From Lachnospiraceae bacterium MD335 (GTDB lineage Bacteria; Bacillota; Clostridia; Lachnospirales; Lachnospiraceae): DNA of 49,584 bases. Below, one piece after another: positions 4,999 through 41,300 of the stretch; positions within the stretch are counted from its first letter, which is position 1, and every line of letters starts with the position of its first letter. Position numbers and translations under genes: made by a program. The notes beneath the pieces are model-generated. The model ran no database searches. It was not told the origin of the DNA and was given only the letters and a program-made list of their open reading frames with translations. Location of the stretch: contig KE159628.1 of NCBI GenBank assembly GCA_000403335.2, positions 800,975-850,558 of the forward strand, in the 5' to 3' direction.

Positions 4999-6684
4999 AT
5001 GCCAAAAACAGTCAGTATCGGGCGACAGGATTTTGAAGCCATAATTACAAATAACTATTTTTATATCGACAAAACAAGTTTTATCAAGGAATGGTGGGAG
5101 AATGGCGATAGCGTAACGCTTATCACCCGCCCGCGCCGTTTTGGAAAGACACTCAACATGAGCATGGTCGAGCAGTTTTTTTCAATTGACTATGCAAACC
5201 GCGGCGATTTGTTTGAAAACCTGAATATATGGAAAGAAGAAAAATACCGGAAGCTCCAGGGAACCATTCCTGTAATCAGCCTGAGTTTTGCCAACGTAAA
5301 AGAGACAACGTATGTAAAGACAAAAACACGAATCTGCCAAACGCTTACGGATTTGTATATCAAATATGCGTTTTTGAGGGACAGTGATACACTTACGCCG
5401 CGGGACAGGGAATACTTTGACAGGGTTTCGGAGCGGATGGCGGATACGGACGCCGTGATTGCGTTGTATAAGCTGAGTGATTTTATACAGCGTTATTATG
5501 GGAAGAAACCGATTATTTTACTGGATGAATATGATACGCCCATGCAGGAGGCATACGTAAACGGCTATTGGGATGAGATTGTGTCGTTTACAAGAAGCCT
5601 GTTTAACTCAACGTTTAAAACAAATCCGTTTTTTGACAGGGCAATTATGACGGGAATTACCAGGGTTAGTAAAGAATCTATTTTTTCTGATTTAAATAAT
5701 CTGACAGTAGTAACGACAACATCGGATAAATATGCGGATTCATTTGGCTTTACGCAGGACGAGGTGTCGGAGGCTTTGCGCGAATTTGGGTTATCCGAAA
5801 TGGAAGAGCGGGTAAAAGACTGGTATGACGGATTTACGTTTGGGAAAAAGACGGATATTTACAATCCGTGGTCTATTATTAATTTCTTGGATACCAAAAA
5901 GCTGTCTGCTTATTGGGCAAACACCAGTTCCAACAGCCTTGCAGGGAAATTAATCCGTGAAGGAAGCAGGGACGTTAAAATAATTATGGAAAACCTCTTG
6001 AAAGGCGGAACGCTTCACACAAAGATTGATGAGCAGATTGTATTTAACCAGCTTGACCACAACGAATACGCAATATGGAGTCTTCTGCTTGCAAGCGGTT
6101 ATTTAAAGGTTGAACGATATTCGATGGATGCCGATGCGGGCAAAGAAGAATATGATTTAAAGCTCACCAATAAAGAAGTGCGTCTGATGTTCCAAAATAT
6201 GATAGAGGGCTGGTTTAAGACATATGTTCCGGCATATAACGATTTTATCAAGGCGCTGCTTGAGGATGACACGGAGGCAATGAATTATTATATGAACAAA
6301 GTCGCGCTTGCGACCTTCAGCTGTTTTGATACGGGAGCAGGTTCTGTGGAAACCACGGAACCGGAACGCTTTTATCATGGATTTGTGCTGGGGCTGATGG
6401 TTGACCTGGCGGACAGATACGAAATTACCTCAAACCGCGAAAGCGGATTCGGACGCTATGACGTGATGCTGGAACCGAAAAATCCCTCGGATGACGCAAT
6501 CATCATAGAGTTTAAGGTTCACCGCCCTGCAAGGGAAAAGGATTTGGAAGCCACCGTGAAGGCGGCGCTTTTGCAGATAGAAGAAAAGCAATACGCCGCC
6601 TCGCTGGAGGCAAAAGGCATCGCGTCCGAACGAATCCGAAAATACGGATTCGCATTTGAGGGGAAAAAGTGTCTGACAGGGTAA
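4999..6684 (+). CDS. AAA-ATPase-like / PD-(D/E)XK nuclease-family protein (DUF1703 type)
   Basis: A 561-residue protein with an N-terminal AAA-ATPase-like domain (PF09820 type): a TRPRRFGKT phosphate-binding loop near residue 45 and an ILLDEYD Walker-B-like strand near 170. A C-terminal PDDEXK_9-type domain (PF08011) has Asp488 in GRYDV and Glu504-x-Lys506 in IIEFKV. The family is very common and often multicopy in anaerobic Firmicutes and Bacteroidetes, and its function is not established. AAGGAG precedes the ATG by a good distance. It stands alone between a terminator and a 14-bp hairpin, and reads as an insertion into the polysaccharide locus rather than part of the pathway. Confidence 0.9.
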
Positions 6685-6718
6685 ATGTATGATGCTGCTT
6701 TTCAGCGGCATCGTATAT
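6685..6718 (+). terminator. Stem-loop after the AAA/PD-(D/E)XK gene
   Basis: Directly after the stop codon, 6685-6698 pairs with 6705-6718 (14 bp with some G-T pairs, core ATGCTGC/GCGGCAT) around a 6-base loop. The following bases are A+T-rich but not a T run, so termination may be weak. Confidence 0.5.
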
Positions 6719-6846
6719 ATGTATTAGCACTAAACAAAAAATGAAATTGTTTTCAATATTTTATTGAAGCATCAAGAAGAAGTAAGCACATTTAATGGAT
6801 GGAAGTTTTTTCTTTTCATTTTTCTTTAATAAAAGCTTAATATATA

Positions 6847-6875
6847 TTGTTAAAAAAAATGAAAACATGTATAAT
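6847..6875 (+). promoter_or_regulatory. Promoter for the DUF4422-GT8 gene, with A8 tract in the spacer
   Basis: TTGTTA (6847-6852) and TATAAT (6870-6875) are 17 bp apart. The spacer begins within a run of eight A residues (6852-6859). The start codon lies 59 bases downstream. The surrounding bases 6719-6934 hold no other recognisable feature. Confidence 0.6.
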
Positions 6876-6934
6876 ATCAATGATTATTATCAAAATATGT
6901 AACTTTAATACATTTAGAGAGGGAAAACAGAAAT

Positions 6935-8800
6935 ATGACAGAGAATATTAAAATCTTTATTTCATGCCATAAGAAGTGCTATATACCAAAACATGAGCTG
7001 CTTGTACCGATTCAGGTGGGAAGCGTGCTCAGTAATAAGCGGTTTGCAAACATGCTTCATGATGACGAGGGAGATAATATCTCAGAAAAAAACAAAAGCT
7101 ATTGTGAACTGACGGCCCAGTACTGGGCATGGAAAAATGCAGAAGCAGATTATTATGGATTTTTCCACTATAGAAGATACATGTCATTTGCGGATAAAAC
7201 GTTGGACCACAATCTATTTGAAGATGTTGAGATGGAATATTTGACGGACAATGCGTTGGAAAAGCTGAATTTGGACAAGGACGTTATGGTTCAAAAGATT
7301 AATCAGTATGATATTATAGCTACGACGCCTGTGTATCTGAATAGGCTGAATAAAATCCTGCATACAAACTTTGATCAATATGTAAAGACGCCTTATCAGT
7401 ACAAGGAAGATTTGGAAGTGCTTTTGGATATTATTAAGGACAAGTATCCTGAATATTATAAGATTGCCTACGAATACATATATAAGCTTCCTTATGGTTA
7501 TTACTGTAATATGTTCATAATGAAGAAAGAGCTGTTCATGGAGTATAGTGAGTGGCTTTTTGACATACTTGAGGAACATGAGAGGCGGCGTGATTATTCG
7601 GATTATAGTATTGAAGGCTACCGGATAAGCGGTTTTTTAGCAGAACGTTTGTTTGGAATTTATTATGAATACATAAAAAGACAGAAGAAACACAAGACCT
7701 GTGAGTTACAAAGAACGCTGTTTCAAAATGTAGATGTTCCGGATGAGATAAAGCCGGCTTTTGGACATAATAATGTTCCAATCATAATTGCCACGAATGA
7801 CTATTACGCGCCTTACATCAGTACACTGCTTTTATCAATAAAGGTCACTGCTTCTGAGCAAAATAATTATGATATTATTATATTATCACATGATATTATT
7901 GCAGATAATAAGAAAAAGCTGCTTGATATGATCGGTGAAAAAACAAACTTTTCACTTCGCTTTGCCGACCCGGGTGCGTTTCTTGACGGGTATAAATTGT
8001 TTACCCGCGGGCATTTCAGCGTTGAAACATATTATAGGCTTGTTTTGCCTGAGATGCTCAAAGATTATGATAAAGTGCTGTACATAGATGTCGATATGGT
8101 GACTACGGCAGATTTGGCAGAGCTTTATGTGACGGATGTAAAAGGGTATTTACTGGCAGCGGCATATGATCCTGACACAGCCGGATTATACAATGGATAC
8201 CAGCCTGACAAAAAAGAGTATATGGACAAGGAGCTTGCACTTGATAATCCGTATCATTATTTTCAGGCAGGAACACTTGTGATGAATTTGGAGGAATTCA
8301 GAAAGACATACACTACAGAACAGATCCTTGATGTTGCGGCTTCTAAGGAATGGCAGCTTCTTGATCAGGATATACTGAATAAGCTGTGCGAGCATAAGGT
8401 TAAGATTCTTGATATGAGCTGGAATGTAATGTATGATTACGGGCATGTCAGGATAAATCAGATTATTAAACTTGCTCCGAGATGGCTGAATGAGATGTAT
8501 ATGGAAGCACGCAAACACCCTAAAATTATTCATTATGCCGGTCCCGAAAAGCCTTGGCTTTTTCCGGAAGGAGACTTTGCGGATGTATTTTGGGAATATG
8601 CGAAGCAGACGCCGTATTATGAGGTTATGCTTTACCGAATGGCATGTTTTGCGGCAAATAGGATAAATGAAGTGAATGATGTGTATAAGAGTGTTGATAG
8701 GAATAAAAGCTACAATATTGTTGTCAGGACATTGCGCTGTTTGGTGCTATATGGACCAATACATATGTTTAAGGAGATAAAGAGGGAGCTGAGTAAATAG
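6935..8800 (+). CDS. Two-domain glycosyltransferase: DUF4422 plus GT8
   Basis: The first ~270 residues match the DUF4422 exopolysaccharide-biosynthesis family: an IFISCHK start, a TAQYWAWKN segment and the FFHYRRYM motif. Residues ~279-580 are a GT8 domain (galactosyl/glucosyltransferase type), starting VPIIIATNDYY, with the metal-binding DVD near residue 384 and an HYAGPEKPW-like C-terminal motif. It is probably a bifunctional cytosolic enzyme adding two sugars, although DUF4422 activity is not well established. An AGAGAGGG ribosome site precedes the ATG. The gene has its own promoter and is followed by a hairpin at 8815-8847, so it may be monocistronic. Confidence 0.88.
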   Translation: MTENIKIFISCHKKCYIPKHELLVPIQVGSVLSNKRFANMLHDDEGDNISEKNKSYCELTAQYWAWKNAEADYYGFFHYRRYMSFADKTLDHNLFEDVEMEYLTDNALEKLNLDKDVMVQKINQYDIIATTPVYLNRLNKILHTNFDQYVKTPYQYKEDLEVLLDIIKDKYPEYYKIAYEYIYKLPYGYYCNMFIMKKELFMEYSEWLFDILEEHERRRDYSDYSIEGYRISGFLAERLFGIYYEYIKRQKKHKTCELQRTLFQNVDVPDEIKPAFGHNNVPIIIATNDYYAPYISTLLLSIKVTASEQNNYDIIILSHDIIADNKKKLLDMIGEKTNFSLRFADPGAFLDGYKLFTRGHFSVETYYRLVLPEMLKDYDKVLYIDVDMVTTADLAELYVTDVKGYLLAAAYDPDTAGLYNGYQPDKKEYMDKELALDNPYHYFQAGTLVMNLEEFRKTYTTEQILDVAASKEWQLLDQDILNKLCEHKVKILDMSWNVMYDYGHVRINQIIKLAPRWLNEMYMEARKHPKIIHYAGPEKPWLFPEGDFADVFWEYAKQTPYYEVMLYRMACFAANRINEVNDVYKSVDRNKSYNIVVRTLRCLVLYGPIHMFKEIKRELSK

Positions 8801-17919: not shown

Positions 17920-19092
17920 ATGAACATATTGTATATATCACCATATGTTCCTTCTGTTCATGCCTGCCATGCTGGTGGGGTGCTAATGGGGAAGGAAGTT
18001 GAAACGATTAGAGAAAAGAATAATCTATATTTAATTTCTTTTATTAATAATGATAATGATAAGCAGCTGGCAAAGGAATATGCAGATAATGAGGCAGAAT
18101 TTTTTGAAATAAAGAAATGGCAGATGTGCTTAAAAGCAATACTGCATCCATTTACTCCTAATTTGTTTGCTATAAGAATAGACAAACGTTTTGAAAAAAG
18201 GGTCTGCAACATTATTAAAGAAAAGCAGATAGATGCTATACATGCTGATTATACGGCTATGGGATATTATCAAATTGTCAAAAAGTATTTTCCTAAAATT
18301 CAATTTAATATGGTTGAACATGATGTAGTACAGCAGTCGTATAAAAGGCAGGCAGAACATGCAGGAGGTTTGCGTAAGATTTATTATAAATGGCAGCTTT
18401 CTTTGGTCAAAAAAAAGGAATTAAAATATTGTAAACGGGCGGATGCTGTTTTTGTCCTTAATGATAAAGACAAAAAGCTGTTATTTGATTATTATGGATT
18501 GGATAAAGCTGTATATAAAATTAATCCATATTATGGTGTAGATATAGAAGCGTCACAAAACAATTTGGAACAAAATGACGAGAAAGAAAAAAATAGCATT
18601 TGTTTTGTCGGGCAAATGGGAAGAGCAGAGAATAAGCGGGCAGCATTGCGTCTTATTCGTATTTTTTCGAATATTAATCTGAAAAATAAAAAATTATATA
18701 TAATAGGCGCAAATCCGGATGACGAATTATTGAAGTTTCATGGAGGAAATATTGTTATAACTGGTTTTGTTGATGATATCAACGCTGCCATAGCAAAATG
18801 TAAAATTGGAGTATTTCCATTGGAAGAAGGTGCGGGAATAAAATTTAAAGTTTTGCTGGCACTTGCATTAGGACTTCCCGTTGTGACAACAGCAGTGGGA
18901 GCAGAGGGAATAGATGAGAATGGAAATATTATTGATTTGGCGGAAACAGATGAAGAAATAACGAAATGCATATTAAAATTACTGGCAGATGAAAGTTACT
19001 ATACAGATAAAAGAAATAAAACTGCGGAATATGTTCGCAATCATTTTGGATGGAATGAAACAGAAAAAATATTTGATAAGGTGTATTTATAA
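17920..19092 (+). CDS. Glycosyltransferase family 4-like (GT-B fold)
   Basis: A 390-residue protein of GT-B design. The N-terminal domain starts MNILYISPYVPS with a glycine-rich GGV. The C-terminal domain starts around residue 225 (SICFVGQMG), and GAGIKFKVLLALALGLPVVTT near 308-326 is the donor-binding region of group 1 transferases. AAAGGGAGA is well placed before the ATG. Soluble or membrane-associated, acting on the lipid-linked repeat unit inside the cell. Likely cotranscribed with the flippase 31 bases upstream. Confidence 0.86.
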   Translation: MNILYISPYVPSVHACHAGGVLMGKEVETIREKNNLYLISFINNDNDKQLAKEYADNEAEFFEIKKWQMCLKAILHPFTPNLFAIRIDKRFEKRVCNIIKEKQIDAIHADYTAMGYYQIVKKYFPKIQFNMVEHDVVQQSYKRQAEHAGGLRKIYYKWQLSLVKKKELKYCKRADAVFVLNDKDKKLLFDYYGLDKAVYKINPYYGVDIEASQNNLEQNDEKEKNSICFVGQMGRAENKRAALRLIRIFSNINLKNKKLYIIGANPDDELLKFHGGNIVITGFVDDINAAIAKCKIGVFPLEEGAGIKFKVLLALALGLPVVTTAVGAEGIDENGNIIDLAETDEEITKCILKLLADESYYTDKRNKTAEYVRNHFGWNETEKIFDKVYL

Positions 19093-19163
19093 ATTATAAT
19101 GAGTATGCAATACGGAGTTTTTTGAAGGGGAAAACGTTGACTGTATAAGCATAAGGAGACAAA

Positions 19164-20816
19164 ATGCGTAAACATTTAAGTATATTTTTCAAAACGATTA
19201 GTTTTCTGATAATCGGAATATTCCTTTTTGCCATGATTCAGAATATTCTTATGCCAAAACGTGCGCCGTATACGAAAGCGTATGATGCAGGAAAGCTGGC
19301 AGGTTTTTATAATGAAGAAGAACATACAATTGATGTGTTGATTTGCTCTACAAGTCACATCAGTAAGAGTATTCTTCCGATGGAGCTGTATGAGGACTAT
19401 GGGATTACGTCCTATAATTTGTCAACTTCCACGCAGCCGATAGAAGCGACGTACTATATTCTTGCAGAGGCATTAAAGACACAGAGTCCGGAGGTGTTTA
19501 TTATTGATGTATCAAACTTATACTTTAGCAGTGTTGAGGCAAAGTATTGGTGGTTTGTCTTAGACGAAATGCATTTGGGTGAGAATAAGACGGCGCTTTT
19601 GCAGGAATATAAAAGAAGTGCAAATGGCGGTAATGAATCAAAGGGAGAACTGCTGTTTCCGCTGCTAAGGTATCATGAGCGCTGGAAAGAGCTTAGAATG
19701 AACGATTTTATGGGATGCCTGCGCGGCGATATACATGATTACAGTAAAGGTGGGCAGGTGAACTCCGCCGTTTCCGCAGCAGACGTAACGGTCGGGGAGA
19801 TGAATTTGGCGGCGGATCAATTGCTGGAAAGTACCCAAAAGATAGAATATGTGTATGATGCGGCGGGCGTTAACGAGAAAATTGAGGACCATGCATTATA
19901 TCATTCTGATATTCCTGAAAAAAATATTGAATGGCTGAGAAGAATGAAAGCGTTATGTGACGAAAATAATATACAGTTATTGGCAGTGAAGGTGCCGACC
20001 GTATTTATGCCGCAGCTTTATAATTCTTCGTGGATTGAGGAGAAATATCACCAAGTACGTACGTTGTGTAATGAAGAGGGCATCACATACTATGATTTAC
20101 TGTATGATACGGATGCAGGAATTGATTGGGAAACCGATACGTCAGACGAGGGCCTTCATCTGAATTTGCATGGTGCACAAAAGTTGTCTGATAATTTGGG
20201 AAGATACCTGATTGAGCGCTATGGGCTGTCTCCCAAACGGAGTGAGCAATGGAACAGGGACTTGGAGTCATATCAAAAAGTGCGGAAGGTTGCGCTGTTA
20301 GAATTAGAAAGGGATTTTACTTCATATCTTGATATGCTTGCAAATGAATTTAAGGACAAAACCATTATTATGTCAATGGCAAATGACGGAGCCGTAGGAT
20401 TGAATGAAGCGGATATTTGGACGCTAAGGGCATTAGGATTGCAGGCGGATTTTTCGGAAACAGATAAAAATTCCTATATAGCTGTCATCGAGGGCGGCAG
20501 TGTGAAATATGAAGCTTTATCTAATCGTCCGCTGAATTATAAAGGAGTATGCGGTGAATCAAATGCGGCATATGAAGTATATAGTTCGGGGTGGCTGACA
20601 GGAGCAGATACGTCTATAAAACTAGCAGGTGAGGAACAGGTAAATAGCCGCAAAGGGTTGAACATTGTAGTATATGATACGCAGCGGGAACTTGTTTTGG
20701 ATAGCGTCAATTTTGACACCTCTTCGGAAGACCATAAGGCGAGAAGAAGTAATTCAAAAACCAATGGATTGGAAGAGCAGTTTGAGAAATATATCATAGA
20801 AGAAGAGTATAAGTAA
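19164..20816 (+). CDS. Membrane-anchored SGNH-type acyl-transfer protein (DltD/DUF1574-like) with C-terminal ILEI-like domain
   Basis: A 550-residue protein with an N-terminal anchor helix (residues ~7-27), so the rest should lie outside the membrane. SGNH-type features: CSTSHISKS with Ser64-His65, an NLSTSTQP block II-like segment, and DEGLHLN (Asp328/Glu329 and His332) for the C-terminal acid/His pair. Residues ~375-525 form a separate domain. Its IIMSMANDGA, LGLQADF, YIAVIEGG and GLNIVVYD...NFDT pieces resemble the ILEI/FAM3 fold, but in circularly permuted order. AAGGAG precedes the ATG. It converges with the ligase-ACP-MBOAT operon across a shared terminator. MBOAT/SGNH pairs acylate surface polymers in DltB/DltD and AlgI/AlgJ-X systems, so I infer a role in O-acylation of the glycan. 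Confidence 0.72.
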   Translation: MRKHLSIFFKTISFLIIGIFLFAMIQNILMPKRAPYTKAYDAGKLAGFYNEEEHTIDVLICSTSHISKSILPMELYEDYGITSYNLSTSTQPIEATYYILAEALKTQSPEVFIIDVSNLYFSSVEAKYWWFVLDEMHLGENKTALLQEYKRSANGGNESKGELLFPLLRYHERWKELRMNDFMGCLRGDIHDYSKGGQVNSAVSAADVTVGEMNLAADQLLESTQKIEYVYDAAGVNEKIEDHALYHSDIPEKNIEWLRRMKALCDENNIQLLAVKVPTVFMPQLYNSSWIEEKYHQVRTLCNEEGITYYDLLYDTDAGIDWETDTSDEGLHLNLHGAQKLSDNLGRYLIERYGLSPKRSEQWNRDLESYQKVRKVALLELERDFTSYLDMLANEFKDKTIIMSMANDGAVGLNEADIWTLRALGLQADFSETDKNSYIAVIEGGSVKYEALSNRPLNYKGVCGESNAAYEVYSSGWLTGADTSIKLAGEEQVNSRKGLNIVVYDTQRELVLDSVNFDTSSEDHKARRSNSKTNGLEEQFEKYIIEEEYK

Positions 20817-20820
20817 AAGA

Positions 20821-20841
20821 GGCAGACCACATCGGTCTGCC
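20821..20841. terminator. Bidirectional terminator between convergent genes
   Basis: GGCAGACC (20821-20828) pairs with GGTCTGCC (20834-20841) around a 5-base loop. It is flanked by an A run on the left and a TTTT run on the right, so it can serve both the SGNH gene and the minus-strand ligase operon. Confidence 0.8.
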
Positions 20842-20846
20842 TGCTT

Positions 20847-22892
20847 TTATACATAAAATATAACGTCTTTCTTTTTCGCAAGCAAGGTTCCTTCTGCCAA
20901 AGGATACCCCAGCGCCGCCATACACCATACAGTATGTTTGGCTGGAATGCCAAACTCGTCCAAAATGCTTTTAACCGGTTCTTCATTTCGCAATGTCATT
21001 AACGCATTAAGCCACACGGAACCAATGCCGTAAGAGTGTGCCGCAATAAAAATATTTTCTGCCGCGCAGGATGCATCCTGACACCCGTTATGATTTCTGT
21101 CATCGTTTGAAATTAGAATAAGACATGCCGGATTCTCAAAGCCATAGCAGTAAACATTGTGCTGCTTTGACGTTGTTACGGCAGCCTCCTTTAATCGGGC
21201 AATTTTTTCCTTGTCCTGAATGACAGTAAAGCGCCACGTCTGCATATTGTGTCCGCTCGGAGCGTAATATCCTGCCTGTAGTATCATATCCAATACATCT
21301 TTAGGGATGGGGGCATCCTTAAACTTTCGGATACTTCTTCTGGTAAGAATTGCCTGAATAACAGGATTCATAAGAGATTCGGCGCCCCGTTCCTCCCACA
21401 TTTTTTTCAGGGTTTTACGGTCAAGCTTTTGCATACGGTTTTTGGGAAGCTCCTGAACCGGTACATAGTGCATTGGCAGTTTGTAGCGTTCCATACGCTG
21501 CGCTAAATAAGTGTGCATTTCTTCTTGTGAATACAGGTTATCCTTTACCACGATGAAAAGTACAGGTACAAATCCGAGTATACCGTCAGGATCGGGAACA
21601 CCAATACAGGCGCACTCGCGAATGTGCGGATATTCACATGCAATGTTTTCGACCTCAATGGGAGACACCTTTTCACCGCCGACATTAATAATATCATCTG
21701 CCCTGCCAAGCATATAAACATATCCGTCCGCATCCTTGTATACCATGTCACTGGTTAAGAGCCAGCCGTCCTTTAATGTTTCTTCGGTCAGATCTTTGCG
21801 ATTCCAGTATCCAGCCATCTGCATATCGCCTTTTAGCGACATTCTGCCAGGATGGTCGCGGTCACTTTGAATCTCGTTGCCGGATTCATCCAGTACACGT
21901 ACTTTGATTTCCGAAAGCGGTTTTCCGAGTGCTCCGATTTTTTGCGCATCATCTGCTATTTCTGTAACATTAATAAACAATGCACCGCCGGATTCCGAAG
22001 AGCCCCATGTGTTATAAATTGTTGTATTGGGGAGAAGTTTTACGAGGCGTTTTCGCTGCTCAATGGTCAGGGAACCAGCGCCTGCTTCAATATACCGGAA
22101 TTTTCCTATAATTTCAGCAAATTGTCCTTGCATTTGCCTTGCAATCGTTTCAATGGATGCCGGAACGACTGCCAGTCCGGTACATTGGTAAGTGGTTTGA
22201 TTGTTTTCGATTTCTTTTGCAAAGGTGAATCCGTTTTGAAGAATAACAGTTGCACCCTGATAGAGAACAGCCCTTAGTACTCTCAATGCAAAGGAATGAT
22301 TCAGGGGCAGAGGCAGGAGTACGCGTTCATCCTCCCGAATGCCAATGCCTTCTATTGTGTTTTTCAGAATATTAAAAACTGCTTTGTAGGTAAGAATGAC
22401 TCCTTTAGGTTTACCGGTTGTACCAGTAGTAAATAATAGCTCAGCAATCTCATTTTCTTCTGGCATTATATAGGAAATTTCTTTATAACGAGAACACTCA
22501 TCCGTGTCCGCATGATATAATTTTTTTAGGGACTGTATATTTATCTGACTGTCAATTCCTTTTAAGGGTTTGTCAGTCAATAACAAGACAGCATCTGTAT
22601 CCTGATAGACGAACGAGATACTTTCAACGGTAGCATTTTTATCCAAAAAGACGGCGACAGCGCCGCAATATTGAACGCCTAGATAAGCTGCAATCATTTC
22701 GGGCTTTGAGAGCGCTGTAAATAACACCCGATCTCCTTTTTTTACATTTTGTTCCGCAAGGATGGCGCCGATCGCTTTTATTTTTGTCATTAATTGCTGA
22801 TATGTCAATTGTTCGGCTTTGAATGCCGCAGCCATTTTATCCGGCTGTTTTTGCGAGAGCTCCTTTATGCGATTGATTAAGGTATCAAACAT
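20847..22892 (-). CDS. AMP-forming acyl ligase fused to a nitroreductase domain
   Basis: A 681-residue fusion. Residues 1-~500 are an ANL-superfamily adenylation enzyme: TTGTTGKPKG near 157 (A3), NTWGSSESGG (A5), GRADDIINVGG near 395 (A8) and a PKNRMQKLDRK end with the catalytic Lys. From about 508 a nitroreductase domain follows, with TRRSIRKF, APSGHNMQTW (FMN-binding type) and GYPLAEG. I start at ATG 22892, five bases after AAGGAGG (22898-22904). A longer open frame reaching 23006 would overlap the ACP gene and is rejected. The next gene upstream is an ACP, so the ligase probably activates a carboxylic acid and loads the carrier, as DltA does for DltC. What the FMN domain oxidises or reduces is unknown. 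There is no internal ribosome site at the domain joint, so it is a true fusion. Confidence 0.85.
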   Translation of the reverse strand: MFDTLINRIKELSQKQPDKMAAAFKAEQLTYQQLMTKIKAIGAILAEQNVKKGDRVLFTALSKPEMIAAYLGVQYCGAVAVFLDKNATVESISFVYQDTDAVLLLTDKPLKGIDSQINIQSLKKLYHADTDECSRYKEISYIMPEENEIAELLFTTGTTGKPKGVILTYKAVFNILKNTIEGIGIREDERVLLPLPLNHSFALRVLRAVLYQGATVILQNGFTFAKEIENNQTTYQCTGLAVVPASIETIARQMQGQFAEIIGKFRYIEAGAGSLTIEQRKRLVKLLPNTTIYNTWGSSESGGALFINVTEIADDAQKIGALGKPLSEIKVRVLDESGNEIQSDRDHPGRMSLKGDMQMAGYWNRKDLTEETLKDGWLLTSDMVYKDADGYVYMLGRADDIINVGGEKVSPIEVENIACEYPHIRECACIGVPDPDGILGFVPVLFIVVKDNLYSQEEMHTYLAQRMERYKLPMHYVPVQELPKNRMQKLDRKTLKKMWEERGAESLMNPVIQAILTRRSIRKFKDAPIPKDVLDMILQAGYYAPSGHNMQTWRFTVIQDKEKIARLKEAAVTTSKQHNVYCYGFENPACLILISNDDRNHNGCQDASCAAENIFIAAHSYGIGSVWLNALMTLRNEEPVKSILDEFGIPAKHTVWCMAALGYPLAEGTLLAKKKDVIFYV

Positions 22893-22914
22893 CATAGCCT
22901 CCTTCCTGCCATCG

Positions 22915-23142
22915 CTATTCTGACAGTCTTTCCACCATTTTTGCCAATCCCGCAACAGAGTTAAAGTTTGCCTCAACAATTTCTTCATAAGGGATTGTAA
23001 TGCCAAACTCCATTGTTAATGTGGCAATAATTCCTGTAATTGTTAATGAATCTAAAATTCCGTCGTCAACAAGTTCATCTGAAGCGGTGAAATCAATTTC
23101 CGGATATTCTTCCGACAATAAATTTAAAATTTTTTCTTCCAT
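22915..23142 (-). CDS. Acyl carrier protein (DltC-like)
   Basis: A 75-residue acidic helical carrier. DGILDSLTI carries the phosphopantetheine attachment Ser32 in the typical D-S-L context. I choose ATG 23142 (MEEKILNLL), eight bases after GGAGG (23151-23155); an upstream in-frame ATG at 23169 lacks a ribosome site. It lies between the MBOAT gene (37 bases) and the ligase (22 bases), so the three are one operon. It should carry the activated acyl group from the ligase to the membrane acyltransferase. Comparison with fatty-acid ACPs: the short length and the LVDDGILDSL motif fit DltC-type carriers better. Confidence 0.88.
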   Translation of the reverse strand: MEEKILNLLSEEYPEIDFTASDELVDDGILDSLTITGIIATLTMEFGITIPYEEIVEANFNSVAGLAKMVERLSE

Positions 23143-23178
23143 TTTGTATTCCTCCATTTCCTGTCTCAAATTTGAAAT

Positions 23179-24762
23179 CTAAAAGTTCGCATATACAAAG
23201 TCGCTGGCGCTATATCCAACGCCGTATATTCCTAAAATAATAATTGCAAAAATTGCACCATAATAAATTGCCCATCGTAATACGATATTTCTATTTGCAA
23301 TCGCTTCCCTGACGGATGCTTTTTGCTGAAGCATACTGATTTTGCGAATAAGAACGAGGCTTAGCAGTACAACACAAAAATCTTTGTAGTCCATCCCGAT
23401 TCGATAGAGCGTTCCGTCCCAAAAAATCCAGGGATTGAAACAACGGAACAGTTGCTTTAACGCTAATGCGCTATTTTCCAACGTTCCCGGCGCTGTAATC
23501 AGTCTTCCGATTGTAAAGATGAAAAAGGTACGCACCATCTGAAAGACTTGGTATCCGCGTGTTGTTGTGTCTATGTGCAGGAGTTCTGCCATTTTTTTAT
23601 ACTGCTTTGCAAAAATTGTTGCAGAAATAATAAGCACACCCCAGTAAATTCCCCACACAATATAGTTCCAGCCTGTCCCATGCCACAAGCCTGTCAGCAG
23701 CCATACGACGGCAAGGGGAATTGCAGCGTTTATTTTTTTGGCGGCTTCCCTGCCGGCTTTTTCTTTTATTGTATTGGTTTGCTTTGCAAGCCATCCTGAT
23801 GTTACAACCGGAAGATAAACATAGTCTTTAAACCATGCTCCTAAGGTAATATGCCATCTTCTCCAAAATTCGGCTGCACTTTTGGAAAAGAAGGGATGAT
23901 CAAAGTTTTTATCTAATCGAACATCAAACAGTTGTGAGGCGCCGCGCACAATATCCATGCATCCCGAAAAATCCATATAGAGTTGAAATGAGGAAAAGAT
24001 CAGTGCAATAAGAATAATCAGTCCTTCATAATCCGCAAGGTTTCCGAGAACTTGTCCTGTAAATAATGCCAGTCTGTCGGCAACAACGAGTTTTTTGAAG
24101 TAGCCGTAAAGCATTAACTGTATTCCGAAACATATGTTTTTATAATCAAAATGGTGCTCTTTCCATATTTCAGAAGACAATTTATGGTATCGGGCAATAG
24201 GACCTTGTACAATTTGCGGAAAATAGGAGACACAAAGCAGATATTTAAAGTAATTGTGGATGGGCTTTGCCTTTCTCCAATAAATATCCAGCAGATAACC
24301 GATGGATGAAAATGTATAGTAAGATATTCCCAAAGGAACGATAATATCTGTCCATGTCCAAAAGGTTATATTTTTATTCAAAAACGCAAAGACATCTGCA
24401 CCAAATTTACAGTAACATAAAATTGCAATTACCAAAATAATTGTCGGAATAAGGTATCGGTTTCGGCAGGTTTGTTTTATGGGAGCTAAGAATGCCATTC
24501 GTTCTTTGCCTTTGAGCTGTCTTTGGTCTGCTTCCTGTTCAGCTGTTTCAAATCGTATGTTCATGTGCTTTGCAGATAAAAATACTATTAAGGCTGTCAG
24601 GACGAGAATCGGCAGTTTTTTTATTCCGGCTGAAATATAAAATATGGTGCTGGCAGCCAGCAAAACAATCCAGCGCAATTTGTTTGGCATGATATAATAT
24701 AGGACTGAAATACCAAGTAAAAAAATAAGAAAATATAGGGAGTTAAATGTTAAAAACGGCAT
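23179..24762 (-). CDS. MBOAT-family membrane O-acyltransferase (DltB/AlgI-like)
   Basis: A 527-residue polytopic protein of the membrane-bound O-acyltransferase family. The two conserved features are WRRWHITLGAWFKDYVY with His304 and LTGLWHGTGWNYIVWG with the active-site His361. I start at ATG 24762 (MPFLTF), nine bases after GGAGA. ATG 24771 is directly adjacent to that site and unlikely. It is the first gene of the operon, with a promoter at 24803-24831. Family enzymes move an acyl group from a carrier across the membrane to a glycan hydroxyl; the ACP and ligase downstream and the SGNH protein opposite complete a Dlt-like set. Wall teichoic acid, lipoteichoic acid or the local polysaccharide could be the acceptor; the position favours the polysaccharide. 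Confidence 0.9.
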   Translation of the reverse strand: MPFLTFNSLYFLIFLLGISVLYYIMPNKLRWIVLLAASTIFYISAGIKKLPILVLTALIVFLSAKHMNIRFETAEQEADQRQLKGKERMAFLAPIKQTCRNRYLIPTIILVIAILCYCKFGADVFAFLNKNITFWTWTDIIVPLGISYYTFSSIGYLLDIYWRKAKPIHNYFKYLLCVSYFPQIVQGPIARYHKLSSEIWKEHHFDYKNICFGIQLMLYGYFKKLVVADRLALFTGQVLGNLADYEGLIILIALIFSSFQLYMDFSGCMDIVRGASQLFDVRLDKNFDHPFFSKSAAEFWRRWHITLGAWFKDYVYLPVVTSGWLAKQTNTIKEKAGREAAKKINAAIPLAVVWLLTGLWHGTGWNYIVWGIYWGVLIISATIFAKQYKKMAELLHIDTTTRGYQVFQMVRTFFIFTIGRLITAPGTLENSALALKQLFRCFNPWIFWDGTLYRIGMDYKDFCVVLLSLVLIRKISMLQQKASVREAIANRNIVLRWAIYYGAIFAIIILGIYGVGYSASDFVYANF

Positions 24763-24802
24763 AGTATCCATTCTCCACTTCTAAGTTATCTTTCAAGTTT
24801 CA

Positions 24803-24831
24803 AGTATATCGTATAAGGCTGTAAAAAGCAA
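24803..24831 (-). promoter_or_regulatory. Promoter of the MBOAT-ACP-ligase operon
   Basis: On the minus strand TTGCTT (24831-24826) and TATACT (24808-24803) are separated by 17 bp. The start codon lies 40 bases downstream. The promoter fits into the 78-base gap after manA, which contains no terminator, so read-through from manC-manA may add to expression. Confidence 0.65.
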
Positions 24832-24840
24832 ATAATTTCA

Positions 24841-25848
24841 CTAGCACCGCACCTTTAAAAACTGCGCTTTTCCGTGGAGATGCATCTTCTCGGAATTTGC
24901 AGGTACGAAAATACAGTCCCCGCGGAAAAAATGCAGCGCTTCGCCGTTTTCCTGAAGTAAAACGCCGCATCCGTTTGTACATAAAAGCACTTCAAAGGAG
25001 GTGCTTTCAGTTTGAAAACATACCAGTTCACGGCAGCGTTCCGTGTTAATCAGCATACGTTCCGCCTGAAAGTATTTGCAGCGGCAGAGCAATTCGGATG
25101 CGCTTCCGGGGACGTATTTTAAAACACGGATTTGCTGTTTCGGCGCCGCGCTTCCTTTCATGTTTACGACATCCATCGCTTTGTCAATATGCAGTTCGCG
25201 CGGTTTTCCGCTTTTGTCCATGCGGTTATAATCATACATGCGGTAGGTAAGATTGGAGCTTTCCTGAATTTCGGCAACAAGTGTGCCTGCGCCGATGGCA
25301 TGTACGGTTCCCGGTTCGATAAAGAATACGTCGTCCTTGTGAATGGGAACTTTTTGCAGATATTTTTCGACATCGCCCTTTTGCAGGCTTTTTCTTAATA
25401 CATTCGGGTGAATGTCGCGGACGAAGCCGTAAATCAGCTTCGCGTCCTTTGAGGCATCTAACACATACCACATTTCCGTTTTGCCCTTCTGTCCGTTTTC
25501 CTTTGCAAATGCATAAGCGTCATCGGGGTGTACCTGAACCGACAAATCCCTTTTTGCGTCTATAAATTTAATCAAAATAGGCAGCTCGCCCTTTGTTTCG
25601 GGATGCGTTCCCAAAAATTCAGGATGTTCTTTGAGCACATCGGACAAAAGCCTTCCGCAGAACGCACCGCTTGCAACAGTGCTTATACCGTCGGGATGTG
25701 TAGAACATTCCCATGTTTCTGCCAAAGGTTCCATATCAATTTGTTTTGAAAAATCGTCGTTAAGGCGGGTTCCGCCCCAAAGATAGTCCATACCCGCAGG
25801 CTTTAATAAAAACGGTTTAGCTTTCGAGTTCATATTTGTGTTTGTCAT
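24841..25848 (-). CDS. manA: Mannose-6-phosphate isomerase, class I
   Basis: A 335-residue cupin-type zinc enzyme interconverting fructose-6-phosphate and mannose-6-phosphate. Visible family motifs: KPAGMDYLWGGTRL at the N-terminus, QVHPDDAYA (zinc His), EMWYVLDA (zinc Glu) and PGTVHAIGAGTLVAEIQ (His and active-site stretch). ATG 25848 is preferred, ten bases after AAGGAG. It lies inside the 3' end of manC, giving a 32-base overlap and likely coupling. With manC it feeds mannose into GDP-mannose for the glycan. Length is typical of the short Firmicute form. Confidence 0.93.
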   Translation of the reverse strand: MTNTNMNSKAKPFLLKPAGMDYLWGGTRLNDDFSKQIDMEPLAETWECSTHPDGISTVASGAFCGRLLSDVLKEHPEFLGTHPETKGELPILIKFIDAKRDLSVQVHPDDAYAFAKENGQKGKTEMWYVLDASKDAKLIYGFVRDIHPNVLRKSLQKGDVEKYLQKVPIHKDDVFFIEPGTVHAIGAGTLVAEIQESSNLTYRMYDYNRMDKSGKPRELHIDKAMDVVNMKGSAAPKQQIRVLKYVPGSASELLCRCKYFQAERMLINTERCRELVCFQTESTSFEVLLCTNGCGVLLQENGEALHFFRGDCIFVPANSEKMHLHGKAQFLKVRC

Positions 25849-27133
25849 GAACGCTAATCTCCTTGCCAAGCTGTACTTCGATTACCTGAAGATTTGTATC
25901 CGCAATAATGGTATGACGGCATCCTGCCGCCATTGTGACGACGTCGCCCGCCTTTACTTTTTGCTCCATTCCGTCTACAATGGTTCGCCCTTCACCGGAA
26001 ATTATGTTCCATACCTCGTCCCTGTAGTCGTGGCTGTGATAATTCATTTTGTGTCCTGCATGGAGTGTTACCTTAATTGTTACACTTTCATCCTCCATGT
26101 CCAGTACGCGGAAGCTGCCCCATGACTTGTCCGCAAACATAACCTTCTGCTCCAGTGTATTGACCAGCGGTTTGATATAGCTGGACTGCTCTTTGTCGGA
26201 TACGAGGATACCTTCCGGACTCGCGGAAACGACGACATCTTTCAGTCCCATGCAGATAATGGGCACGTCTAGTTCATTTACGACGTGTACGTTTTCGCAG
26301 GTTTCATTGAACAGCGCTTCTCCGACGCTGTTGCTGTCCATCGCCTTTGTCAGTGTATTCCATGTGCCGAGATCTTTCCACATGCCGGAAAAACGCATAA
26401 CCTCAATCAAATCTTCATGTTCTGCAACGGCGTAGTCAAAGCTGATTTTTGTCAGGGTGTCGTATTTTGCATACAAGTCGCTGTAGTCCGTAAAATCAAT
26501 CAGTTCATGGGCGCGCTGTAAAACGTATCCCAAACGGAAGGCAAATACGCCGCCGTTCCAAAGTGCGCCGCTTGCGATGTATTGTGCCGCAGTCTCCTGC
26601 GTTGGTTTTTCCTTAAACATGGAAACTTTGCTGACGTTATCGCTGCTCTCGGGAATAATGTAACCATATTTTTCGCTGGGATAGGTCGGTTCGATTCCCA
26701 TTAAAACGAGGTTCGCTTTGCTGGTTTTGGCGCGGTCTCCAAGCTCCCGTATTGCCTTGAAATAGTCCTCTTCCACATAAGGATCGACAGGGCAGACAAC
26801 AACAGACTCATTTTCACCCACACCCTGAACGTCTTTTAAGTATGCCGCCGCAAGTGCGATTGCGGGGAAAGTGTCCCGTCGGCAGGGCTCGATACTGATG
26901 CCCACATTTTCGCCTAATTGGTTATGGATTGAGGAAACCTGTGATTTGGAGGTGGCAATGGTCACGGCTGCGTCCTTATCCACTGACTTAATTTGACGAT
27001 AGACACGCTGTACCATTGACTCCAGTTCGCCGTCCTGCGTGTGGAATATCTTGATAAATTGTTTGGAGCGGATGTCGTTGGATAACGGCCACAGGCGCTG
27101 TCCTGAACCGCCGGATAACAAAACAATATTCAT
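25817..27133 (-). CDS. manC: Mannose-1-phosphate guanylyltransferase with C-terminal cupin domain
   Basis: A 438-residue enzyme making GDP-mannose from mannose-1-phosphate and GTP. It begins with the nucleotidyltransferase signature LLSGGSGQRLWPLS (residues 5-18), with Lys in the following RSKQF. Later FKEKPT and LWNGGVF motifs are those of mannose-1-phosphate guanylyltransferases. Residues ~345-430 are a mannose-6-phosphate isomerase-type cupin (MNYHSHDYRDEVWNIISG). The enzyme may therefore be bifunctional, although a separate manA overlaps its end. AGAGAGG precedes the ATG. No phosphomannomutase is present in the window, so mannose-1-phosphate must come from a mutase elsewhere. Confidence 0.92.
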   Translation of the reverse strand: MNIVLLSGGSGQRLWPLSNDIRSKQFIKIFHTQDGELESMVQRVYRQIKSVDKDAAVTIATSKSQVSSIHNQLGENVGISIEPCRRDTFPAIALAAAYLKDVQGVGENESVVVCPVDPYVEEDYFKAIRELGDRAKTSKANLVLMGIEPTYPSEKYGYIIPESSDNVSKVSMFKEKPTQETAAQYIASGALWNGGVFAFRLGYVLQRAHELIDFTDYSDLYAKYDTLTKISFDYAVAEHEDLIEVMRFSGMWKDLGTWNTLTKAMDSNSVGEALFNETCENVHVVNELDVPIICMGLKDVVVSASPEGILVSDKEQSSYIKPLVNTLEQKVMFADKSWGSFRVLDMEDESVTIKVTLHAGHKMNYHSHDYRDEVWNIISGEGRTIVDGMEQKVKAGDVVTMAAGCRHTIIADTNLQVIEVQLGKEISVHDKHKYELES

Positions 27134-35299: not shown

Positions 35300-35372
35300 A
35301 AAAGATGCTACAGTGTACCCAAAACAGAGGGGGGAACACATAACAGATGTTTACAAGAAAGGACTACACAAA

Positions 35373-38300
35373 ATGTTGAAACGCAAACTGTTAAAACGAG
35401 TGCTGCCAATGATTTTGAGTATAAGCATGGTATTTGGTTCGATGCCGGAAACTGTGTTTGCTGCGGAATATGAAGAGCGCACAATAACGCAGGAAACATT
35501 TCCGGAGGAGGACGAAGCCGTTAGTGAGCGCTCGGAAAATTTAGAGGATACTCCTGCAAGTACTGGGGGGGGGTATACAGAGGCGGAAGAAAGCGCAGCG
35601 CAGGAGACAGAAACAGCCGGTACCGATGCAGCAACAGATGATAACAACGTGCAGACTGCCGTATCGGAGGAAGCTGCGGAGGAATCCGAAAAAAACGCGG
35701 AGAAGGCGCTTGATACAAAGCTTGTCGTGAATAAGGAAAACCTGGCAAAAGCATGTGCAGGTTTTTACAAATATGATGTTGACAAAGAGATTGTATTGGT
35801 AAAGTATGACGCGGATAACAGCGATCCGTTTTCTGTAATTTTAAATAATATTCAGAGTGCAAACAGAACAATCCTTTCGATTGAAATAGACGGTGAAACA
35901 AATAATGCACTACATGGCAGTCTGAAATATCAGTGGCAAAAGGCGGATGGTACGAGCTTGGCAGAAGGTGCCGTTCCGGCAGCGGCGGGCGATTATAAGC
36001 TCCTTGTGTCGCTTGATGCGGTTGAGAATACATGTTCACAGGCTGAAATAACACTTGTTTTTCAAATAGCAAAAAGACAGCTTTCGATTGCACTTGCGGA
36101 TGAATATGTGCAGCCGGGGACAACGGTCAGTGCGTGGAAGGATAATTTGAAATATGAGCTGCGGCAGGAGGACAGCGCTTGGGAGGACAACAGTGAGATA
36201 ATCGGTGAGGACGAAAAGTCAGCATATATTGAGTCTGTTTCCGTAGAGATTTACGATGCGCATAGTATGGAATCTGCCCTTTCAGGTGAGACAAAGCTTG
36301 TTGAGGGTTTGGATTATGCTGCGAAAGTGAAGCCTGTTTTAAAGCAGGAGGCATCATCAAACTATGCGATTCCCGAGGAAATCGTATTGAATCTCCATAT
36401 TGCTGATTTGATTACTACGCAAGTAAAAGCGGAGCAGAAAAATCCGTCAGAGTCCATTGCAAAAGTTTACGACGGGGAAAAATTCAGCTATGCGGCATTG
36501 ATTAAGGATAAACTGAACATCTCTGTTCTTGCCTATGATGCATTGAACCCCGAGGAGGGAAAAGTGCTTGAAAATGCGGCAGTTACGGAGGTGTGGTTTG
36601 ATTCCGCAAAGGCGGAGCTTGGCGAAGGTGAGGAGGCGGAGCCGGCGCAGGCGGGTACGTATTATCTTGGATTCCGTTATTATCCTGCGGAAGAGGACGC
36701 GAAGGTCTACAGTGAGGCGACGAATTGTCAAACTTTTATCAAAGTAGTTATTGAAAGGGCACCGCTGACGCTTGTGCCTGAATTCAAGAGTACTGCGGAG
36801 ACATTCTACACGGGCATGAAAGCGTCCGATGTGCTGCGGTATGCGGATTATAAATTGTTTGACGCTGCGAACAACGAGGTTACAATTGACAGAAACACAT
36901 TTTGGGGTGTTTCTTATGATGATGGCAAGGCAGATACAATGCAGTCATTTGAGCCGGTATTTTCTTTAATCCGCGCAAAAAAGGATGCAGACGGCAATCC
37001 CGTAAAGGATGCGGACGGAAAGGAAATATGGACAGCGGATGCGGGCGTGCTTGATAAGGATTATCTTTACAGACTTGTGTTTACGGGAAAGAAGGCTGTT
37101 TATAAAAATAAAGGCAATTTGGAATTGGGCTTAAAGGGTGAAGTTGACGTAAACGGAAGTGATGTCGATGCGGAAGACAAAAATCATTCCATTGTGACAT
37201 CGGAGGATGTCCTTTTCGGGAAATACGTGAACGTGCCTGTCGAGGAGGCAAAGCAGACGACAATAGATGTATCAGGTATCTTGCAGCAGGGCTTTAACAC
37301 AAAAAATCTCAATGAGCTGTACCAGCCTGCAAAGCTTGTATCAAAGGTGTATGACGGAGCGGGTATTTACGGCGCAAGGGGGGACTACAAAAAGGCAGTC
37401 GTAACGGCGGCGGACGGCACGGAAGCGGCAAAAGATTATGACGTTGCGATACAGTATACATGGTATCGGATTACCGGAATTGAAGCGGATTATGACGAGA
37501 CAGATCCGGACAATAGAAAGCAGATTGGCTGGAAGGTCAGCAAGTCCAGTGCGGTGAATACAACAGTTCAAAACGGAATACCGGTTGCCGCAGGCGAGTA
37601 TATGCTTCAGATTCGTTTTGCAAAGACCGGATATGTTCCGAGCACGGAGACGATTTATTACAGAATTGATAAGCAGCAGCTTGTTGTCGACATTAAAAGC
37701 ATTCCTTTAGCGTATACGGGAGACGACGCAGCGCGCTATCTTAGTAACGTGCATTATCAGGGAAAGTATGATGTCTATAAAGTGCCTCAAAATCAGTATA
37801 GCGAAGCGGTTAAAACAGAAGAAAACCTTTTGACCGATTGGTATAAATTGTCGTATTACAGCGATATTGAGGACTATAGCGGAAACTGCTACAAGCTTGA
37901 CTGGTTTGTGGAGCAGGCGCAAAAGGATGCGGATGGAAAGACGGAATATGTAAAGCTTGATACGTATGATTTGTTAACGGAAACGGCGGCAGATACGTAC
38001 AGGCTTGGCGTTGAGCTAAAGAGCGGCAATGCAGATTACGGAAATTATGAGATTGTTTATGAAGAGGAGATGACGCCGGCTCCGTCTTACAAAACAGTGT
38101 ATCACAATGATTACGAGACGATTACGGTAAGCGATACGCAGGGAATCGAAGTCGTGCTTGCGTTGGATGAAACAAAGCTTACGACGGTAAAGGATTATGA
38201 CGGAAAGCCTTTTTATGATTCGGAAGAGGAAGGTGTGGCAGCGCTTGAAAATGCGCTGACGATTACAAATGCCGCAACGGGAGAGGTGATTCCAAGAGAG

Positions 38301-41300
38301 AACTGGCCAAGGATAGCGTATGACGTAGTGGATAATACCTATGCGGATTATTATGGCTATGACAGATATGTCGGGTTGGACGAAATGCTTCACGGCGGTT
38401 CTTATGCGCTGGAATTTGAAGTTGAGGGTGATGAAACATACCGCTACGATTTTAAGGGCGAGGTCGTTTGCTACACCATCAATCAGATAGCGCTTGATGT
38501 AACGCCGGCTCTAATGGAAGATATTCCGGCAGGTACGGATACAAGAATTTCGGACGGCGCGGTTTATGACTTGTCAAAAACGGAGTTTAAAGGTTTTGCG
38601 GAAGCGGACGCAGCGGCGTTTCAGTATGGAACACCTTGTAATGATGACAGTGAGACAAAGAGGCTTGGATTTAGTGCGTACTATAGATTTGATGATGATA
38701 ACAAGTGTTATTTATATAGCGAGCCGCGTGCCAAAATAAGCAAAGCAGGAAGCGCGGCGGTTTATAACGGATATATCCGTTATAATACGGAATATGCAGT
38801 GCAGTTTGCGGGGGCGCTTGGGTATCCGTATGTCAGAGATTATAAGGTCAATTATGTGAGAAAAGCCTTTTCTGCGACGCGCAGAGGCAATTCCAAAGCG
38901 CAGGAAACGGAGTTTTTTGGAAATACGGCGGCATTTGTACAGCAAAATAAAGCAACGGCAGTGACGATTACGCCAATCTCGGAACTTCCGTACATATATT
39001 CGGATGCGCTTGAAGCATATGATGATATAACTGCCGGAGAGGGAAATTACTTCGCGTTCCGTGTCAATGCGCCTTATGAGTTTATGGAGGACAATCGCAA
39101 CTATGACAAATACGCGGACAGCTTTGTATACAAAAACAGTATTGAGGCGGCGGGCGGATTTGTTTATGAAGAGGACACAGCAGGCCGCTTTTATGTGCTG
39201 TTCCCTGTAAAGGATAAAACGGACAAAAGCTTTGATATTATATGGGAAAACGGATACACCGAAACGTATACCATTCATTTTGTGGATGCAGTATTGCAGG
39301 ATGATCTGACAAAGGCGGTTGCTCCGAAGAGCCTTTCTTTTAATAGTGTCAATACAAAGATGGCTGTGGGTGATGAGCAGCAGCTTGATGTCAAAATTAA
39401 GAAGGAACAGATTGGTGACGTTATCCATATTGATTATAAGGTAACGCAGGGTGATGACGTTATCAGCATTACGGCAGACGATGCCAAGAAGACGGCAGGC
39501 TATGCAACGGCATTAAAGCCCGGAAAAGCAGTTGTTTCGGCATTTCCTGTCAGAATGGTAAACGGTGTCAAAACGCCGATTGAAGGGGCAAAAGCCGCAA
39601 CGGTATTGATTACGGTCAGTGATGTGGCAGCGCCCGCCGTAAAGACGCTTGCGGCGTTTGATACCCGTGTGAAGCTTCAGTATGTAAAGCCTGCAAACGG
39701 ATACCGCAGGGAGCTTTATGTTTTGGAAGGGAAGCAGAAGGCAGATGCGTTTGAGAGCGCAATCGGCGAAATCCAAAACGGCAAGTGGCAGGGCATTTTT
39801 GCGGCGGAGCCGGTATATTATTCAAATGAAACGGTAACGGATGCAAAGACGAAGCTTGTGGCATGGAAGACCATAAATAATCTTTTGCCGGACAAAGAGT
39901 ATACGGTTTATGTGAGAAATGTAAGCGGCATTCGGACGCTTGCGGATGGTTCCTGCGTTTCCCTGTCAGCGGCGGGAACTGTTAAAAGCTTTAAAACGTC
40001 GAAGCCGCAGATAAAAAAGCTTCGCCTGCGTGCCAAGGTTGGTGAGGACAAATTTACAACAGGAGTAAAAACAGTTACACTTTCAAGTAAGACGGAGCAG
40101 CTTTATACGGATGGACTGTTTGCGGAGAATGTAACGGACCCTGCGGCAGATCAGACAGACATGTTGTGGCTCAGCCTGCCTCTTGATAAGATGTACGGGA
40201 AGACAATGGCAGCTCCCAAGCTTACCTATTGGGTAAGTGCAAGCCCCAACAGCGTAGACCCGAAAATACCCGACAAGGATGTGACGGTCGATGAAATAAG
40301 GGACTTTAGATATTATGTATATGCAGGCGGCGAATATTATGACAGAACGGACATCGCAACCGTTGATAAGAAGGGTAAGGTTACGTTTAAGGGCGTAGGT
40401 ACGGTATATGTTCATGTGCGCGACGATGTGACGGGATGTTCGGCGAGCATTCGCTTAAATATCTGTGCAACGGCGGACAGCATGACGGCAAAATCCGCAA
40501 AGCTTGCTGTCGGCAGGCAGCTATACCTTTCAAGCCTTCTGACCTATTATGAAGGAAAGACAGCGCTCCTGGGCGTTTCGTATCACAACTATCGAAACGA
40601 CGGCACCGTTTTGGATGCGGTAAAGGGAACTACGTATAAGTCAAATCTTGTGCTTCCGGTAGAGACGATAAGCAGGGTTAACAACGAGGGCAATTTCTAC
40701 ATTGAAGCTACAGGGGACGGGGACTACCGGATTTGTGCGTTAAAACCAAACGCACAATGCAGTCTTACTGTTGCGGACGGAGCGCTTTCGGCAACGGCTG
40801 CAATACAGTCTGCACCGATTGATCCGGTAAAGGATTTTAAAATAACAGATGTTGTGGATAATGGATTTATAATCAGTTTTGCATATCCGGTTGACACCGA
40901 TTTAAGCGGCGTGAAGTACCGCATTGATATAACGGACGCAAGAGGCAGTCTTGTAGATAGCTTCCGGTGGGATGCATACGATTATACGAGCTGCGACGGA
41001 AAGAAAAAGACGTTTATGCAGACGGGGCAGTATCAGAACGATAAGATTATCCGTCTATCAAAATATAACGTTTCCGTTACGGCGTTATACGGAGATGAAG
41101 CTTCGGCAAAGCCTGCAAAAAAGACGGTAAAGACGACCGATTTTCCTGCGTCATATTATGCGCTTTCCAAGGCCGGATACGGCGGAATGCCGATTCGCGT
41201 GTACGCAAAAGCAGGTGGAACGACAGAGTTTAATGCAGAGTTAAAGGATAGAAAATACCTGACATCCGGAAATGCATATACATTGAGTGCGCAGGTAACG

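Follow-up and report, generated by a model that had tools for sequence, protein, structure and literature searches.

The stretch of DNA analysed here, referred to below as the window, comprises 49,584 nucleotides of contig KE159628.1 of Lachnospiraceae bacterium MD335 (genome size 4.96 Mb, completeness 97.84%). The minus strand of the window carries a guanylyltransferase-like gene, a mannose-6-phosphate isomerase gene and the genes of an MBOAT acyltransferase, an acyl carrier protein (ACP) and a fusion protein that consists of an AMP-ligase and a nitroreductase domain (Table 1). The gene of an SGNH protein is convergent with the fusion gene, their ends being separated by 30 bases, and it therefore lies outside the fusion transcription unit. 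The isomerase gene probably belongs to the same transcription unit as the cassette. A sequence-only reading had described a minus-strand MBOAT, ACP and ligase-nitroreductase fusion facing an SGNH gene, and these genes, their strands and the fusion are confirmed. The MBOAT residues that it called His304 and His361 were counted from Met4 and correspond to His307 and His364 when counted from the first ATG. Ser32 of the ACP keeps its number if the ATG given in Table 1 is taken as the start.

Table 1. Features of the cassette and of the adjoining mannose-pathway genes (positions within the window)
Feature	Position	Strand	Remarks
AMP-ligase/nitroreductase fusion	20847..22892	-	681 residues; ligase approximately residues 1-503, nitroreductase approximately 508-681; single unbroken frame
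Ligase domain	21384..22892	-	His199-Ser200, Arg204, Glu269 and catalytic-type Lys489 invariant in 23/23 fusions
Nitroreductase (FMN) domain	20850..21371	-	Arg518, Ser520, Arg522 and Asn549 invariant in 23/23 fusions
Acyl carrier protein, phosphopantetheine Ser32	22915..23142	-	Pfam PP-binding; ATG start at 23142, GGAGG just upstream
MBOAT acyltransferase	23179..24771	-	Pfam MBOAT; invariant His307/His364; C-terminus FVYANF
SGNH protein	19164..20816	+	N-terminal helix (probable membrane anchor); Ser64/Asp328/His332; from alignment, model and fold comparison
Mannose-6-phosphate isomerase	24841..25869	-	TIGR00218 154.1 bits, above cut-off; directly upstream of the cassette
Mannose-1-phosphate guanylyltransferase-like	25817..27133	-	Pfam NTP_transferase; TIGR01479 below cut-off; overlaps the isomerase gene

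The fusion protein scores above the Pfam cut-offs for AMP-binding (199.7 bits), AMP-binding_C (49.7 bits) and Nitroreductase (103 bits, cut-off 23.5). The same fusion is present in 24 genomes, in one of which (locus L077) it is split by a frameshift; this copy was left unmended and out of the alignment of the remaining 23. The aligned fusions are 42-78% identical to that of the window, and they are not copies of one assembly because the closest pair among them is only 81.4% identical. The possibility, raised in the sequence-only reading, that the joint between the domains is an assembly or frame artefact can be discarded, as full-length fusions from 22 other genomes align across it, in addition to the frameshifted one.

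Full-length matches to the query were found in 5 of 38 genomes of the genus and 12 of 397 of the family, the own genome being included in both counts. At 1e-60, 29 of the 397 family genomes match in some way, and those that do not contain the fusion contain ligases without a second domain. A search of the order (295 genomes) added two fusion genomes, one of them from another family. A scan of named genomes with six short peptide patterns, which reaches close relatives only, gave 13 loci, seven of them in genomes already counted, and thus six additional genomes. The cassette is present in the cultured strain Lactonifactor longoviformis DSM 17459. The samples of the class (391 genomes) and phylum (299 genomes) returned only the own genome at E <= 1e-90, a threshold that weaker or differently built fusions could escape. 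Without the peptide scan, the searches yielded 18 fusion genomes, which represent 14 genera. Among plasmid records, 1,733 match the query and 17 do so over at least 80% of its length, whatever their domain content; the 15 matches listed are 24.6-29.2% identical to the query.

The fusion is consistently accompanied by the same partners. The ACP gene adjoins it in 21 of 24 loci, the MBOAT gene in 22, and the gene of an SGNH protein (18 loci) or a DHHW-type protein (four loci) also in 22; all three kinds of partner occur together in 21. As the neighbour profiles were built from BLAST-found sequences of the same loci, these counts are partly circular; the partners added by the profiles are the ACPs of L053 and L072 and the SGNH protein of L054, which is weak (42.4 bits, no Pfam family match). 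The DHHW-type partner of L057, the only one of the four that was scanned, scores over the DHHW cut-off and just below that of ALGX. The outcome that would have spoken against the sequence-only reading, fusions found mostly without ACP and MBOAT genes, is thus contradicted by the 24 loci, and the profile counts also rule out a chance neighbourhood.

The exceptions are few. The L047 contig is short and has neither ACP nor MBOAT; in it the end of a sodium:solute symporter and a second AMP-ligase share one open frame (6520-8760) adjoining the fusion gene. No ACP was found at the L054 locus. In L059 the fusion lies amid a ketosynthase-ACP protein, a non-ribosomal peptide synthetase (NRPS) and an A-PCP protein. 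Such a setting is to be expected if the product of the fusion is a carrier-bound acyl unit. This polyketide synthase (PKS)/NRPS cluster (L059:5167-19900) has the order ketosynthase-ACP, C-A-KR-PCP and A-PCP, and is adjoined by a radical SAM/B12-binding protein.

The proteins of the transfer half have recognizable relatives. The ACP, scanned from a TTG at 23169, scores 27.1 bits against PP-binding (cut-off 20.8), and 27.9 bits against the DltC model, for which 68 are required. The MBOAT scores 41.6 bits against its Pfam family (cut-off 27). His307 and His364 are invariant in 20 aligned MBOATs (19 from fused loci and that of L061), all of which end in FxYxx[FY] and 16 in FxYxxF. When L045 and L070 are counted as well, the FxYxx[FY] end is present in 21 of 21 readable MBOATs of fused loci, 18 with a final Phe. 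According to PMC12148441, the acyl group leaves the MBOAT on this motif, in the form of acyl-tyrosine, and is delivered to the serine of the SGNH protein. The shuttle motif evidently marks MBOAT-SGNH systems more widely, since four other MBOATs found in the same genome also end in it. The SGNH protein matches only Lipase_GDSL_2, and does so at 24.7 bits, below the cut-off of 32.9. Its predicted model, which begins with the helix noted in Table 1, matches proteins of the SGNH fold; in an alignment of 17 rows Ser64 and His332 are invariant and Asp328 is nearly so. DltD is absent among the 50 fold matches listed for this model.

The known systems with which the cassette has to be compared are divided, in the Discussion of PMC12148441, into two classes of MBOAT-SGNH acylation: 1) Dlt, with a carrier and DltX; 2) the others, in which there is no carrier and the shuttle is fused to the MBOAT. 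The Pat-type systems are described there as lacking a carrier protein and using acyl-CoA. With Dlt (DltA/C/B/D/X, D-alanylation of teichoic acids) the cassette shares an ATP-driven ligase, a separate carrier with its phosphopantetheine serine, an MBOAT and an SGNH protein. Its departures from Dlt are a ligase that has Ser instead of the Asp of amino-acid ligases and continues into a nitroreductase, a tyrosine shuttle that is part of the MBOAT, and a location in a polysaccharide locus. A motif scan of open reading frames of 30-80 residues in 19001-25900 found no separate DltX-like frame, only the tail of the MBOAT itself. With O-acetylation of the PatA/PatB type the cassette shares an MBOAT with a C-terminal FxYxxF shuttle and an SGNH partner, whereas the present MBOAT gene is accompanied by genes for an ACP and a ligase. 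The shuttle motif, which the sequence-only reading had overlooked, makes the locus a mixture of the two: the first half of the cassette works like Dlt and the second like Pat, and by the sequence comparisons made here it lacks a defining feature of each. The same combination of carrier and built-in motif occurs in both fused and unfused lineages. A ligase-nitroreductase fusion, or a carrier combined with a built-in shuttle, was not recognized among the papers listed from the open-licence literature, judged by titles and beginnings of abstracts; on the same basis, neither was recognized in papers on succinylation or, among the matches listed, on nitroreductase precedents.

The claim of the earlier reading that the system runs parallel to Dlt in this genome is not borne out. 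The best match of the DltA model TIGR01734 in the genome is this ligase itself, with 135.9 bits against a cut-off of 559.85, which is passed by none of the 60 searched genomes and by two of 14 control genomes. The MBOAT reaches 145.5 bits with the DltB model TIGR04091 (cut-off 375), and two other MBOATs of the same genome score 140.8 and 149.8.

The ligase pocket points away from amino acids. Ser200, Arg204, Glu269, Thr295, Gly303 and Lys489 are invariant in all 23 aligned fusions, and Ser200 occupies the column in which amino-acid ligases have Asp. We take this column to be position 235 of GrsA, and the role of the Asp is presumed from there. Asp is present in this column in the controls, namely the NRPS A domain of L059 and five DltA-like proteins from relatives (L083-L087); with 309-336 bits, these five are themselves below the DltA cut-off. 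A Cys that is presumably the DltA Cys is common to L083-L085 and absent from the window ligase. Of the 17 unfused rows that lie outside the fusion group (L027-L042, L047b), 16 also have Arg204. At the sequence level, the ligase therefore does not look specific for D-alanine; a D-alanine-specific ligase with an inert second domain, the outcome that would have told against the sequence-only reading, is disfavoured by the Ser-for-Asp substitution and by the purifying selection described below.

In a tree of 50 ligase domains, which carries a long-branch warning among the outgroups, all 23 fused rows and two unfused rows form one group (support 100/99) with the unfused rows nested inside. Weak forks include those placing L059 deepest (92/88) and joining L026 with L063 (86/94). 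The simplest reading of the tree is a single origin of the fusion followed by two losses. The domain was probably lost rather than split off in the two nested members because neither genome has a close free nitroreductase, the best being 28% (G189) and 26% (G285) identical. One of them (L026/L061) has kept the ACP, MBOAT and SGNH protein, and its pocket has changed, Ser200 to Thr and Thr295 to Asn. The other (L025/L060) has kept the pocket and has no cassette, lying near pilin-like genes. Each is a single case.

The nitroreductase domain appears to be FMN-competent. Position 519, next to the invariant residues, is Arg in 20 fusions and His in three, and the residues of the flavin mononucleotide (FMN) site match the RRS-x-R contacts of BmdC described in PMC8795117. 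The Pfam score and the FMN-contact residues place the domain in the nitro-FMN reductase superfamily. The best match by sequence among solved structures is 3ek3 (3.1e-30), deposited as Nitroreductase, and none of the NCBIfam models scores above its cut-off on the domain. In 18 of 22 rows, identity to the window is no lower in the nitroreductase half than in the ligase half. In six pairs of fusions, 70-83% of the synonymous sites of this half differ, versus 8-23% of the non-synonymous sites; synonymous change is saturated in most of these pairs, so that the contrast is usable and the ratio is not. Non-synonymous change is less than in the ligase half in three pairs of the window group and more in three pairs of another group. 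On this contrast the domain is evidently under purifying selection, which together with the half-by-half identity rules out a decaying domain. One of seven fusion genomes searched (G607, L118) encodes, away from the cassette, a free protein 49% identical to the domain, and in L077 a second, free nitroreductase adjoins the fusion.

By combining these observations, it is possible to describe how the cassette may work. Its anatomy lends good support to a role in carrier-dependent acylation of a glycan. The best explanation for the whole, held with moderate confidence, is O-acylation of an envelope glycan with redox conversion of the carrier-bound acyl group. The ligase half would adenylate a small non-amino carboxylic acid that probably bears a further anionic or polar group, and attach it to the phosphopantetheine at Ser32 of the ACP. 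The nitroreductase half, being within reach of the same swinging arm, would then use its FMN to convert the carrier-bound acyl group. As Lachnospiraceae are anaerobes, reduction (of an enoyl thioester, for instance) is likelier than an oxidase reaction. The MBOAT would subsequently move the acyl group from the ACP to the tyrosine of its own FVYANF motif at the outer face, and Ser64 of the SGNH protein would pass it on to the surface polysaccharide that the locus makes, at one of its hydroxyls. By analogy, the acyl group would thus travel from the ACP to tyrosine, serine and the glycan; we only infer which acid is involved, that it is redox-converted and in which direction. Redox tailoring of the acyl group, unproven as it is, would make the most economical use of a domain that is conserved, FMN-competent and fused to the activating enzyme. 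A precedent is BmdC, an FMN protein of the same superfamily that works on a carrier-bound intermediate, but BmdC, as described in PMC8795117, is a separate oxidase of an NRPS line acting on a thiazoline, whereas here the domain is C-terminal on a stand-alone ligase.

Two comparisons weigh against a clean call of the acid. The search of solved structures with the ligase places gramicidin NRPS first and MenE next, and the fold comparison, whose rows cover the ligase half only, ties feruloyl-CoA synthetase, MenE, MatB and DltA. Of the 25 NCBIfam ligase models listed, none reaches its cut-off, the best attaining 308 of 476 bits.

The nitroreductase might instead leave the acyl group alone and sense the redox state or electron supply, or reduce something else, thereby gating the ligase. 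This is rather unlikely, although the FMN site is conserved without a known substrate and there are unfused cassettes that manage without the domain. The nearly identical pocket of the L059 fusion, in its PKS/NRPS setting, ties the domain better to the identity of the substrate, as does the changed pocket where a kept cassette has lost the domain (L026/L061), each being a single case. That the domain merely dimerizes the ligase, or docks it to the ACP, is improbable: nitro-FMN reductases are typically dimers or pseudodimers, according to PMC8795117, but a scaffold would have no need of the FMN-contact residues, which do not vary among the 23 aligned fusions. It is very improbable that the fusion feeds acyl-ACP into a small-molecule or lipid product and that the MBOAT genes are incidental neighbours, since only the fusion of L059 sits in a PKS/NRPS cluster, against MBOAT genes adjoining fusions in nearly all loci and genomes that span 14 genera. 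Ordinary D-alanylation with an inert extra domain can hardly be maintained, since a carrier, MBOAT and SGNH protein in the roles of DltC, DltB and DltD, and DltA structures among the tied fold matches, are outweighed by the Ser-for-Asp substitution in every aligned fusion, the low TIGR01734 and DltB scores, the lack of a DltX-like frame in the scanned interval and the purifying selection on the nitroreductase.

The unfused relatives bear on the origin of the acid. The family search gave 19 unfused matches outside the fusion group, and 17 of these loci were analysed with wide flanks (L101-L117); of the other two, L064 has neither of the importers described below, and the partial match G262:C41 was left out. 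Ten of these loci (L101-L108, L111, L116) are ligase-ACP-MBOAT-SGNH cassettes, with the shuttle motif in all ten MBOATs and an ACP match at every locus. Like the fused cassettes, they have a ligase (28-34% identical), an ACP, an MBOAT with the shuttle motif and an SGNH-type protein; they differ in the absence of the nitroreductase domain, in other pocket residues and in often adjoining an importer. A CitMHS/Na_sulph_symp transporter is encoded within or beside the ligase's run of genes in five of the 17 loci (L101, L102, L104, L105, L108), and an NMT1-type ABC importer in six (L106, L107, L109, L111, L112, L114). The same profiles found no importer at any of the 24 fused loci, where the flanks differ and some contigs are short (the loci measure 4.3-20 kb, the window aside). 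Importers beside the unfused ligases, and none found at the fused loci, suggest that the wider family uses an anionic acid and that the fused lineage makes its own. They also hint that bacteria with the unfused sisters may decorate their glycans with scavenged anionic acids. No recurring acid-synthesis genes were found beside the fused cassettes in the neighbour clusters or the sampled proteins, a search that did not scan every neighbour.

A bolder proposal, which is offered tentatively and may well prove wrong, is that the cassettes form a third class of envelope acylation, in which a carrier donor is combined with a shuttle built into the MBOAT and the activating enzyme also reduces or oxidizes the carrier-bound acyl group. 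The fused lineage might make an anionic acyl group from a common cytosolic acid (for example, fumaryl to succinyl), and the unfused sisters might import the finished acid. In terms of the scheme in PMC12148441, this Lachnospiraceae cassette family mixes the two classes, and in one of its lineages the activating enzyme also has a redox domain. Should the redox step prove real, the acyl groups of such surface glycans would not be predictable from Dlt or acetylation. The fusion offers a direct handle, as one purified protein together with the ACP would reveal the acid and any mass shift.

The acceptor is probably a surface polysaccharide containing mannose or galactofuranose, given that the mannose-pathway genes of Table 1 adjoin the cassette and that a UDP-galactopyranose mutase and several glycosyltransferases are encoded around it on the plus strand. 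In a close relative (G005, L119:7478-10560), a DltA-like ligase adjoins an ACP-like gene and a WcbI-like protein (28.4 of 29.2 bits), and the MBOAT profile found no MBOAT there. Amid the glycosyltransferase genes of the window lies a gene of the AAA-ATPase_like/PDDEXK_9 families (4999-6684); a gene of the same families is present near the fusion of L047 (843-2531), with a second similar gene adjoining it. Close to the end of the window there is a GHKL-type (HATPase_c_5) gene at 46319-47284. Positions 35313-45017 encode a protein of 3234 residues whose sole Pfam match is Big_2 (28.1 bits, cut-off 22.8), and which is probably a large surface protein.

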